Below are positions 2,409-6,180 of a stretch of 52,772 nt of DNA, in pieces (position 1 is the stretch's first letter; each line of letters begins with the position of its first letter). This DNA is from Acidobacteriota bacterium (GTDB lineage Bacteria > Acidobacteriota > Thermoanaerobaculia > Multivoradales > JBCCEF01): NCBI GenBank assembly GCA_039028635.1, contig JBCCHV010000043.1, positions 1 through 52,772 of the forward strand. The letters are read 5' to 3'. The notes beneath the pieces are model-generated. The model was not told the origin of the DNA and searched no databases. It was given only the letters and a program-made list of their open reading frames with translations. The position numbers were made by a program, and so were the translations under genes.

Positions 2409-4469
2409 CTGAACCGGCCAGCGATTTTCGCCCTGGTCGGAACCCTCCTGACCATCATCGCCGTCGCCTGGACGGTCGACCTCTCGCCGCGGGTGGAGAG
2501 TGACTTCTTCTTCGCCAGCGACGACCCCCAGCTACTCGAAGCAGGTCGCATCGCGGAGCTCTTCCCGGCCGGCGACCAGATCCTGGTACGAGCCGCCGGC
2601 TCCCTCGCCGATGAGGATCACCTGGAGCGACTCGAAGCCCTCAGCGCCGAGCTCGCCTCCCTCTCCGAGGTCACCGGCGTGCAGAGTGCCACCCGCGGTC
2701 CTCGCAGCCCCCAGCTCCTGCCCGAGAGCCCGTTCTGGCGCCGTCTTCTGATGCCCGGCGGCGACTCCGCCAGCCTGATCGTCCTGTCGCTCACGCCGCA
2801 GGCCGGCGGTGAGACCGTTCGCCAGGTCGAAGCGGCGGTCGCCGGCTTCGCCAGCGAGGGCCTGCACAGCCAACTCTCCGGAGTGCCCTTCGTGGTCGAG
2901 CAGGTGCGCCGTTCCCTGGTCCGCGATCTGCGCATCTTCAGCAGCGCCGCCGTCGCCCTCTTCGGTCTCGTCCTGGCGCTGCTCTTCCGTTCCCTGCCGG
3001 TAGTGGTCGGCACTCTGACGAGCTGCGCTGCGGCCGCCGCGGCGACTCTCCTGGTACTCGCCCTGATCGGCGTCCCGATCGGCATCCTGACCGCCAACCT
3101 GGTCACCCTGGTCTTCGTCCTGACCCTCTCCCACACGGTGTTCCTCACCGCCCGCTGGCGAAGCCTCGGAGGCGATCCCGCGACTGCTGCCCAACAGGCC
3201 CGACGCAGCGTTTTCACCGCCTCTTTCTGGTGCATGGCCACCACCCTGCTGGGCTTCGCCAGTCTGACCACGGCGTCGGCCAAGCCGCTGCGCGAGCTGG
3301 GAGTCGCCGGAGTGATCGGAGCGCTCCTCGCGATCGCCGCCGCTTACCTCCTGTTTCCACCCTTTCTGGCTTCGGCCCGCGCCGCCAGCAGCGCTGGTCG
3401 CCAGGGCTGGCTGCCGCGCCGTCCGCTGGCGGCGGGGGTCACCCTCGGCCTCTGTGCCTTGCTCGCCCTCGGCATCCTCCGAGTGCAGACGGATCCCGAT
3501 CTGCTGTCCTACTTCCAGGATGGATCACCGCTTCACGAGGGCCTCGCGGCGATCGACCGCGATGGCGGCTCGAGCCCCCTGTCACTGGTCGTCGGCCTGC
3601 CCTCGGGAGAGCGCCTCGACACTTCGGAAGGCATCGCCCAGCTCGCCGCCGCCCAGCAAGCTCTCGAGGACGATGCCGCCACCGGCGCCGTGCTGAGCGC
3701 CGCGGCGCTGGTCGCCGAGGCCAAGGAGACCTCGCCCTTTGCCGCCCTCCTGCCACCGTCGTCGCTGCTCGATCTGCTGTCGCAGGACTCCTATCAGCGG
3801 GTCGCCCTGTCCTTCATCACCGCCGATCGCGATCGCGCTCAATTCTTCCTGCGCATGCACGAGGAAGAACGCCGGGAGAACCGCCGAGCGGTGATCGACC
3901 GCCTCACCCGAGGGATCTCCGAGCAGGGCCTCGATGTCGAGCTCGTCGGCGGCCTCTACGATCTCCAGGATCGCCTCGGCAGCCTGGTGCGCTCCAGCTT
4001 GCTGCGCGGCCTGCTGCTCCTTTGGCTGCTGTTCGCAGGCATCGCCTTCGCGGTCAGTCGCAACGGTCGCAGCACGGCGGCCCTGGTGTTCTGCCTCCCC
4101 TGGGTACCGCTCGCCGTGGTCGGCACCTTCGGCCTCCTCGGGCGTCCCCTCGACATCATTTCGTCGACCGCCCCGACGATCGCTCTCGCCCTCGGCGTCG
4201 ATTCGATGATCCACCTCGCCGCGGCGGCGCGCCGCGCCCGCCACGCCGGTCGAGCTCCCGCCGCCGCCTGGCGACAGGCCCTTCAGGAGACCGCCACCGC
4301 GGTGGTCAGTGCCACCGCCATCGTCGCCATCGGCTTCTCGATCTTCTTCGCTTCGAGCTTTCCGCCGACGCAACGCTTCGGCGGCGCGGTGGTGGTCGGC
4401 AGCCTGCTGGCCGCCGCCCTCGCGCTCACCGTCTTGCCGCGCCTCGCCGGCGGCAGGGAAAGGGCCTGA
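2409..4469 (+). CDS. RND/MMPL-superfamily transporter (about 686 aa), probable CTG start
   Basis: This is an RND/MMPL-type permease with two repeats of a periplasmic loop followed by a membrane bundle. Helix groups lie around residues 160-310 and 515-680; the second repeat carries LALGVDSMIHLAAAARRARHAG. The first in-frame conventional start is GTG at 2493, but the open frame extends upstream to a stop at 2376. The translation there supplies the missing first helix (AIFALVGTLLTIIAVAWTV) that RND repeats need. GGAG at 2399-2402 sits 6 bases before CTG at 2409, which I take as the start. An ATG at 2389 is out of frame and closes after seven codons. Substrate unknown; hopanoid, lipid or drug export are possible. 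The selenoprotein candidate begins two bases after the stop. Confidence 0.85.
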   Translation: MNRPAIFALVGTLLTIIAVAWTVDLSPRVESDFFFASDDPQLLEAGRIAELFPAGDQILVRAAGSLADEDHLERLEALSAELASLSEVTGVQSATRGPRSPQLLPESPFWRRLLMPGGDSASLIVLSLTPQAGGETVRQVEAAVAGFASEGLHSQLSGVPFVVEQVRRSLVRDLRIFSSAAVALFGLVLALLFRSLPVVVGTLTSCAAAAAATLLVLALIGVPIGILTANLVTLVFVLTLSHTVFLTARWRSLGGDPATAAQQARRSVFTASFWCMATTLLGFASLTTASAKPLRELGVAGVIGALLAIAAAYLLFPPFLASARAASSAGRQGWLPRRPLAAGVTLGLCALLALGILRVQTDPDLLSYFQDGSPLHEGLAAIDRDGGSSPLSLVVGLPSGERLDTSEGIAQLAAAQQALEDDAATGAVLSAAALVAEAKETSPFAALLPPSSLLDLLSQDSYQRVALSFITADRDRAQFFLRMHEEERRENRRAVIDRLTRGISEQGLDVELVGGLYDLQDRLGSLVRSSLLRGLLLLWLLFAGIAFAVSRNGRSTAALVFCLPWVPLAVVGTFGLLGRPLDIISSTAPTIALALGVDSMIHLAAAARRARHAGRAPAAAWRQALQETATAVVSATAIVAIGFSIFFASSFPPTQRFGGAVVVGSLLAAALALTVLPRLAGGRERA

Positions 4470-4470
4470 C

Positions 4471-5034
4471 ATGGCCTGGATCGAGGTGATCGACGAAGAC
4501 CGTGCCGACGGCCGCCTGCAGCGGCTCTACGAACGCCTCGTCGGCCCCCACGGCGGAGTCGACAACATCCTCAAGATCCACAGCCTCAATCCCGCCTCCC
4601 TGGCGGCCCACTTCGAGCTCTATCGCACGGTGATGCGCGGACGCTCACCGCTCAGCCGCACGCAACGGGAGATGATCGCGGTGGTGGTCTCGGCCGCCAA
4701 TCGCTGTCGCTATTGAATTGCCCACCACGGAGCGGGGCTCCTCGAACTCACCGACGACGAGGTCTTGGTCGAAACCCTTAAGAAGGACTACCGCCAGGCG
4801 GAGCTGAGCCCGGCCGATCGCGCCATGCTCGACTACGCGGTGCGACTCACCGTCGAGCCCTGGGCGATGCGGCGGCGCGATGTCGAAGCCCTGCGCAGCA
4901 ACGGCTTCTCGGACACGGCGATCCTCGACATCAATCAGGTCACCGGCTACTACGCCTTCGTCAACCGTCTCGCTGATGGGCTGGGCGTGGAGCTCGAGGC
5001 GGAGCTGTTCCCCGAACCCGAGACAAAAAAATAA
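4471..5034 (+). CDS. AhpD-like/peroxidase-related enzyme, candidate selenoprotein (187 aa with Sec82)
   Basis: The frame from ATG 4471 to the stop at 5034 is interrupted once, by TGA at 4714-4716. Read through, it gives one uninterrupted carboxymuconolactone-decarboxylase/AhpD-type protein of the 'uncharacterized peroxidase-related enzyme' family. The family motif is EMIAVVVSAANRCxYCxxHHG. Here it reads NRC-R-Y-[TGA]-IAHHG, so the TGA falls exactly on the resolving/peroxidatic second cysteine (codon 82). Downstream, about 105 residues continue with family features (DYAVRLTVEPWAMRRRDVEALR, INQVTGYYAFVNR). A GC hairpin with a GGG loop follows the TGA at selenocysteine-element distance. The role would be hydroperoxide reduction through a Cys-x-x-Sec pair. 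The gene is probably co-transcribed with the RND transporter. Conventional gene callers would split it into 4471-4716 and a fragment starting near 4765. Confidence 0.85.
4729..4741 (+). promoter_or_regulatory. Candidate bacterial SECIS hairpin
   Basis: GGAGC (4729-4733), loop GGG (4734-4736) and GCTCC (4737-4741) form a perfect short stem. The loop begins 17 bases after the in-frame TGA at 4714-4716. Bacterial SECIS elements place a small G-containing apical loop roughly 16-37 bases after UGA, inside the coding region, where SelB binds it. The spacing and loop Gs fit; the lower stem is not obviously paired. Confidence 0.6.
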
Positions 5035-5424: not shown

Positions 5425-6180
5425 TCAGGGCCGCAATGGTCCCGCCGTCAGCCACACCGGGCCATGGCCACGCTGCTGCAGGAAAACCACCGCTTGCCCT
5501 TCCGCATCGGCCTTCATCGCAAAGGTCGCGGCCAGCTCGGTCTGCCCCGCCGACAGAACCGCCAGGCGCTCGAGGTGCCGCACCACGTAGTCGTTGCGCA
5601 ACTGGCGGTCGGCGTTCTCACCACGCGGAACGTCGGTCGCGAAGCCGCTTTCGATCTCCGCCAGCCAAAGCTCCGCCGCCGCTTCGAGGGGCCGTTCCAG
5701 GGTGACCCTGGCGTGACCCGTACCGCTCTCCAGACGGGCCTCCAGTCGCCCGACGGCGGGCCGTGCGAGGGCCTCCTCGAGGGCCCGTCGCACCTCGCCT
5801 TCATGGGAGCCGACGACATGCTCCCGGCCCGCCACCACCAGTTGAGGGGTGTAGAGGGTACCGACCCCGAGGCTGCCGTCGTAGGCCACCTGGCGCTCGG
5901 TCCAGCGGCGCTTCGAGAAGGGATCCCGCCAGCCGAGATCGTTCCAGTAGTCGACATGGAAGGCGAGCGGCACGAGGCGGGCGGCGAGGTCCGGATCGGC
6001 AGCCAGCTGGCGCAGCAAGCGATCCGCCGGGGGGCAGCTCGAGCAGCCCTGGGAGGTGAACAGCTCGACCAGCACCGGACCCGCCGCGACGTCCCCTTCG
6101 GCCGCCTCCGGCGACGCGCCGACGAGGCTCGCAAACACCGCCCCCAACACGACTCCGAGAACCCGGCCATCGAGCCTCAT
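5425..6180 (-). CDS. Secreted DUF1223 thioredoxin-fold protein (251 aa)
   Basis: An N-terminal signal peptide (about residues 1-27, VLGVVLGAVFASLVGASPEAA) is followed by the DUF1223 hallmark VLVELFTSQGCSSCPPADRLL. Its C46-S-S-C49 pair sits in a thioredoxin-like fold. Further family segments are LAFHVDYWNDLGWRDPFS, TLYTPQLVVAGREHVVGS and a C-terminal beta domain ending around 'VVFLQQRGHGPVWLTAG'. Function in the family is unproven; an extracytoplasmic redox role is plausible. The ATG at 6180 overlaps the stop of the upstream esterase gene by 4 bases (ATGA), so translation is likely coupled. A longer in-frame extension to 6798 is a shadow of the esterase gene. Confidence 0.88.
   Translation of the reverse strand: MRLDGRVLGVVLGAVFASLVGASPEAAEGDVAAGPVLVELFTSQGCSSCPPADRLLRQLAADPDLAARLVPLAFHVDYWNDLGWRDPFSKRRWTERQVAYDGSLGVGTLYTPQLVVAGREHVVGSHEGEVRRALEEALARPAVGRLEARLESGTGHARVTLERPLEAAAELWLAEIESGFATDVPRGENADRQLRNDYVVRHLERLAVLSAGQTELAATFAMKADAEGQAVVFLQQRGHGPVWLTAGPLRP

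Follow-up and report, generated by a model that had tools for sequence, protein, structure and literature searches.

The window analysed here, a stretch of 52,772 nucleotides from an Acidobacteriota bacterium (contig JBCCHV010000043.1 of assembly GCA_039028635.1), carries on its forward strand a candidate selenoprotein gene of the peroxidase-related AhpD/CMD family at positions 4471..5034, which consists of 187 codons plus TAA. When TGA is translated as selenocysteine (Sec), this frame runs from an ATG start to the TAA at 5032-5034, and its single internal stop is the TGA at 4714..4716 on the forward strand, which forms codon 82. An earlier note made from the sequence alone had described one frame with one TGA, and this description holds, since the frame extends from ATG to TAA and contains no other internal stop. 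The note also anticipated that automated annotation would split the gene. Indeed, ORF calling with translation table 11 yields only the fragments 4309-4716 and 4765-5034, and a standard ORF listing thus breaks the gene into two. The presence of TGA in this frame is far beyond chance. When the entire window was scanned for a TGA flanked on each side by an open stretch of 40 or more codons whose GC content by codon position is of the coding type, three sites were returned; the two besides codon 82 (436 and 21490) are the ordinary ends of listed ORFs, with the next listed ORF beginning 9-12 nt later, and were rejected.

Two neighbouring genes are relevant to the discussion below. An MMPL-family transporter-like gene (2493..4469, forward strand; Pfam MMPL, 78.7 bits) lies immediately upstream, and its TGA stop ends 1 nt ahead of the selenoprotein ATG, an arrangement on the basis of which the two genes may possibly be co-transcribed. 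Downstream, and convergent with the selenoprotein gene at a distance of 0.4 kb, is a gene on the reverse strand (5428..6150) for a DUF1223 protein (Pfam DUF1223, 196.2 bits), a member of a thioredoxin-fold family that carries a GCSSCPP motif. The DUF1223 protein matches the structure 2axo, which has been classed as a thioredoxin fold according to the portions of the source available to us (PMC3091736).

Family membership of the joined protein was established by profile searches. The protein scores 149.3 bits against TIGR01926 (peroxidase-related enzyme; cut-off 81.8), with residues 2-174 aligning to model positions 1-174, and 50 bits against the Pfam CMD family PF02627, and all 45 aligned members likewise match TIGR01926 at E <= 0.001. 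An AlphaFold2 model computed from these 45 aligned sequences consists of helices only and has a mean pLDDT of 96.8, and its best PDB matches in a Foldseek search are 6k40, 3c1l and 2pfx, with TM scores (query) of about 0.85-0.88. These three entries are also the nearest solved structures by sequence. The AlphaFold2 and Foldseek results together indicate the all-helical AhpD fold. The family assignment implied by the earlier description of an AhpD-like peroxidase is therefore retained, whereas the word peroxidase denotes the inferred activity of the family rather than of this protein.

The residues surrounding the TGA read CRY-U-IAHH, such that the TGA, read as Sec, aligns with the second cysteine of a CxxC motif to give C79-R-Y-U82. 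We agree with the previous placement of the TGA on the second cysteine, but the wording of the family motif given there required correction, as the form present here is C-R-Y-U-x-x-H-H. Additional candidate active-site residues are encoded on the same strand at 4669..4671 (Glu67) and 4726..4728 (His86), both assigned to a proton relay by spacing, and at 4705..4707 (Cys79, the partner cysteine of CxxU). Glu, Cys, Tyr and His occupy positions 67, 79, 81 and 86, respectively, in all 58 loci that were compared. The AhpD active site comprises Glu36, Cys48, Tyr50, Cys51 and His55 in PA0269, and Glu118, Cys130, His132, Cys133 and His137 in the M. tuberculosis protein, as given in the accessible text of PMC3141380. 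The spacing of E67-C79-Y81-U82-H86 is identical to that of the PA0269 residues, and the window protein accordingly has the catalytic pattern Glu-x11-Cys-x-Tyr-Cys/Sec-x3-His, with residue roles taken from that same text.

Codon 82 was also compared among relatives. In total, 58 aligned loci cover this codon. Thirty of these (including the window's own gene) were recovered by a search of 59 related genomes, and 13 of 14 came from further genome contigs, the remaining one (L064) having been dropped because its match begins past codon 82. Another 15 were picked by their place, some of them for having no stop. Codon 82 is TGA in 52 loci, TGC in five and TGT in one, and no third kind of codon is found. 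Thus, the alignment that had been proposed as a check, which was expected to place Cys at codon 82 in homologues, shows Cys in six of the 58 loci (L062, L063, L065, L066, L067 and L075) and TGA in the others. Among the loci examined, Sec is therefore commoner than Cys at this codon, a ratio that is not an unbiased census due to the manner in which the last 15 loci were chosen. Of the 51 further loci that share the TGA, 50 are from other genomes and one is from another place in this genome, and the TGA form is present both in the window's order and in named metagenome-assembled genomes (MAGs) of Acidobacteriota and Chloroflexota. Furthermore, when the gene is compared with 14 relatives one by one, nucleotide differences fall most often at third codon positions on either side of the TGA in every one of the 14 comparisons.

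Several other observations were made among these loci. The additional TGA-containing copy in this genome (L068; G000:C76:8002-8565, reverse strand) is a second TIGR01926-like gene whose product is approximately 46% identical to the window protein, with the TGA at the same codon. The genome also encodes a Cys-coding PF02627 protein (L075, at G000:C62), and one genome thus harbours two copies with Sec beside one with Cys. Identity to the window protein reaches 71% among copies from Chloroflexota MAGs (L051-L060), comparable to the 73% reached by the best copies from its own order; horizontal transfer of the gene between phyla is possible. The gene tree implies three changes between Sec and Cys, with starred branches also allowing a single change. 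The long Cys branches render its direction unreliable, and we therefore draw no inference from the tree on the origin of Sec versus Cys. Proteins with two Sec residues were considered for L022, L045, L069 and L070, in which a second TGA occurs 99-107 residues after the first. This second TGA is located at the ordinary C-terminus and was taken as the normal stop.

The genome also contains the apparatus needed to decode UGA as Sec. A tRNA-Sec with the anticodon TCA (UCA) is found at C2:83322-83417 with a score of 73.3 bits, and ARAGORN likewise calls it as tRNA-Sec. Among 11 weaker matches in the genome, seven were run through ARAGORN, which called six as ordinary tRNAs and made no call for one. 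The six include a tRNA-Ser, which is the only other match to exceed the gathering score for tRNA-Sec. Matches above the curated cut-offs identify selA (535.4 bits) and an adjoining selB (367.5 bits) on contig C21, as well as selD (279.3 bits) on C42. The absence of selA, selB and selC from the genome had been put forward as grounds for abandoning the selenoprotein assignment, but the tRNA-Sec, selA and selB are present, as is selD. Matches to selA also occur in 57 of the 59 related genomes, 54 of them above the cut-off, a distribution too broad for co-occurrence with the TGA form to be informative.

On the basis of these decoding genes, and of the restriction of codon 82 to Cys codons or TGA in 58 loci, we judge that the gene encodes an AhpD-like protein in which UGA at codon 82 is read as selenocysteine, and we assign this reading a probability of roughly 0.96. 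The selenoprotein claim of the earlier note is upheld by the same evidence. Two other accounts of the TGA deserve consideration. The codon might be a sequencing or assembly error for a true TGC or TGT, or the gene might be dead and cut off at codon 81. A single-base change does convert TGC or TGT into TGA, and six of the 58 homologues carry a Cys codon at this position. However, TGA occupies this codon in 52 loci, the downstream frame is conserved with coding-type substitutions, and no other stop interrupts the gene. Given that 51 further loci share the TGA, sequencing error can in practice be dismissed, and we consider this account as a whole to be extremely improbable.

We also regard as very improbable the proposals that the TGA is read as Trp or Cys, through a variant code or a suppressor tRNA, or that translation ends at codon 81 and a separate chain is re-initiated downstream. 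TGA serves as an ordinary stop nearby, where it ends both the MMPL gene (4467-4469) and a STAS gene (436-438), the genome has a dedicated UCA tRNA-Sec together with SelA, SelB and SelD, and codon 82 alternates only between TGA and Cys codons, and not with Trp. The re-initiated chain has a conceivable start codon in the TTG at 4765, which would open an ORF of 89 aa, but the split would part Cys79 from His86.

A SECIS hairpin just after the UGA is expected of a bacterial selenoprotein gene, and a putative apical hairpin of this type (GGAGC-GGG-GCTCC) was recovered by a hairpin search at 4729..4741 on the forward strand. Twelve bases separate the TGA from the stem, and the hairpin, which has a G-rich loop, begins 13 nt past the TGA. 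Stems of at least 5 bp are found within +4..+48 in all 52 TGA loci, versus two of six Cys loci. Over the 15 codons past the TGA, the mean stem with GG in the loop is 6.21 bp, compared to 4.50 bp in synonymous re-codings, whereas in four control segments the gap between TGA loci and re-codings is no more than 0.44. The six Cys loci give 5.33 versus 3.43 in one upstream segment, which serves as a warning, the group being so small. Individually, only eight of the 52 TGA loci reach p < 0.05 against their re-codings, and the 5-bp hairpin of the window is not better than its own (p = 0.40).

The hairpin of the window is in the same register as a 6-pair stem formed by the group of 25 sequences (24 distinct) to which it belongs. 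All six pairs form in 18 of these sequences, five pairs in three and four pairs in four, and 92.4% of cells in the group pair, compared to 22.9-50.0% when the partners are slid. Covariation in this group shows no excess (0.131 versus 0.138 in shuffles). A sister clade of 18 sequences (L041, L044-L048, L050, L068-L074 and L076-L079) has its hairpin at +21..+40 after the TGA, approximately 7-10 nt farther than in the window's group, with a loop of CGGG in 15 sequences and CGTG in three. Both-sided changes occur at three of seven pairs in this clade (12 cells). Its covariation score is reached by none of 500 shuffles, which ignore relatedness, and the count of pairs with both-sided changes is reached by 26 of 500. 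No SECIS signal emerged from a folding-energy test over 36 nt (mean z -0.37, versus -0.46 and -0.32 in upstream controls), and an Rfam search of the window produced no match at the gathering score. From these sequence comparisons, we consider a SECIS hairpin to be well supported at the level of the family and plausible for the window sequence itself.

If these assignments are correct, SelA, SelB, SelD and the tRNA-Sec of the same genome would decode UGA 82 as Sec under the direction of the downstream SECIS hairpin, and we infer that Sec is actually inserted at this codon. The reactive selenol is most likely Sec82, with Cys79 as the resolving residue of an AhpD-type cycle, as judged by analogy with characterized relatives. 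In such a cycle, a proton relay formed by Glu67, Tyr81 and His86 would activate Sec82, which would then become Sec-OH by reducing a hydroperoxide, more probably an organic one than H2O2. Cys79 would resolve this intermediate to give a Cys-Sec bond, which would be reduced by a cellular dithiol, perhaps that of the neighbouring thioredoxin-fold DUF1223 protein. In M. tuberculosis AhpD, peroxide attacks the second cysteine. In the distant relative Sestrin2, the catalytic residue is the first Cys and Leu occupies the second position, according to the excerpts of PMC4674687 at hand, and because Sestrin2 works with the first Cys alone, it is not certain whether C79 or U82 is the first to be attacked.

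We are less sure of peroxidase chemistry, which is assigned by analogy, than of the selenocysteine reading. A selenoprotein with the AhpD fold might instead act as a Cys-Sec disulfide-type reductase or as a reductive dehalogenase similar to Bmp8, and the fold does match that AhpD-fold debrominase (6ohi/6ohj, 18% identity). The peroxidase activity of the window protein is itself extrapolated from its family, and a recurring thioredoxin-fold neighbour would suit thiol exchange and peroxide reduction alike. Nevertheless, the best matches by both sequence and fold are peroxidase-related proteins and the full proton-relay set is retained, and we consider a function other than hydroperoxide reduction to be rather unlikely.

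The genes flanking the selenoprotein gene were also compared among loci. In the short flanks of the other 57 loci, tblastn returned no match at E <= 1e-4 for the MMPL protein, so that nothing in these flanks marks it as a conserved partner. The four neighbour proteins of the window that were searched, MMPL included, gave the same outcome at this threshold in those loci; the DUF1223 protein was matched in three of the 57. Clustering of flanking ORFs from 23 of the 58 loci, a set that left out the DUF1223-bearing loci except for the window's own, produced no cluster spanning more than two loci among the ten largest.

A separate survey for DUF1223 neighbours covered 51 loci (40 + 11, the window not being counted) with longer flanks where contigs allowed. 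A DUF1223 gene is located beside the AhpD gene in four of these (L085, L086, L087 and L102, in genomes G033, G044, G016 and G040), and the other 47 have no DUF1223 match at E <= 1e-5. In all four genomes, the DUF1223 gene is directly upstream of the AhpD gene, no more than 0.3 kb away and in the same orientation, and each AhpD gene contains one TGA, which was confirmed as codon 82 in the paired genomes other than G040 (L044, L071 and L072). DUF1223 occurs in 29 of the 59 related genomes, and five of these, including that of the window, have the pair within 0.5 kb; no such pair is found in what was searched of the other 24. By chance, approximately 0.035 pairs would be expected in the 28 genomes other than the window's, which corresponds to Poisson probabilities of 6e-8 for at least four pairs and 6e-4 for at least two. 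G033 and G044 belong to one genus and G040 to the same family, and the pairs thus represent perhaps two to three independent events.

A functional link between the DUF1223 and AhpD genes is therefore likely, as judged from genomic arrangement, and gene position and fold suggest that the DUF1223 neighbour is a candidate redox partner of the Sec-containing enzyme. That the two proteins form a dedicated redox pair, with DUF1223 as the reductant or the client, is a tentative proposal that we consider somewhat doubtful. A version in which the pair carries out deiodinase-like reductive dehalogenation, and not peroxide reduction, is much less likely. The sections of the DUF1223 literature that we consulted contain no link to AhpD or selenoproteins. 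If true, the redox pair would provide a function for DUF1223 and a partner for this selenoprotein family. Regardless, the recurring neighbour points to a possible reductant or client of the Sec-AhpD enzyme, a lead that can be tested.

Proteins related to the window protein are known from several sources. Its solved homologues by sequence and predicted fold are the peroxidase-related proteins 2pfx, 3c1l, 6k40 and 2prr, and in the two whose alignments were inspected at this position (2pfx and 3c1l), Cys stands where the window protein has Sec. NCBIfam includes three related families of AhpD-fold (seleno)proteins. The window protein is not a member of NF041238 (AhpD-related (seleno)protein CFYUT), against which it scores 50 bits with a cut-off of 175, and it has no match at E <= 0.001 to NF053654 (YciW-related (seleno)protein) or NF041047 (GSU3128 family), which are matched by 26 and two of the 45 aligned members, respectively. 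Sestrin (PA26, N-terminal Sesn-A domain) is a distant homologue, as the window protein scores 34 bits against Pfam PA26 (cut-off 29.4). It keeps the first Cys, the Tyr and the His, whereas Sestrin2 has Leu at the position of Sec or the second Cys and is a larger eukaryotic protein, as described in the available part of PMC4674687.

The closest precedents are the bacterial AhpD-like selenoproteins, whose existence had been mentioned in the earlier note and is confirmed by the portions of four reports available to us. AhpD-like proteins of COG2128 with a CxxU motif were described from the Sargasso Sea in 2005 (27 sequences; PMC1088965), and AhpD-like selenoproteins of the same COG from bacterial genomes in 2006 (two sequences; PMC1794560). 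The GOS data of 2008 added AhpD-like 1 (COG2128, CxxU) with 299 sequences (PMC2398784), and in 2026 a review included the entry 'AhpD-like protein, TIGR01926, CxxU' (PMC13188914). The Cys-x-x-Sec arrangement singled out previously is thus present (C79-R-Y-U82) but not special, as these texts describe the same order for AhpD-like selenoproteins. Within the same texts, only host and sequence distinguish the window gene from the known CxxU proteins, and no structural difference was found. The gene is therefore a further instance of a selenoprotein type that has already been reported; it adds one more example to selenium biology and leaves the existing view unchanged, and its DUF1223 neighbour is the one lead that goes beyond the known AhpD-like selenoproteins.
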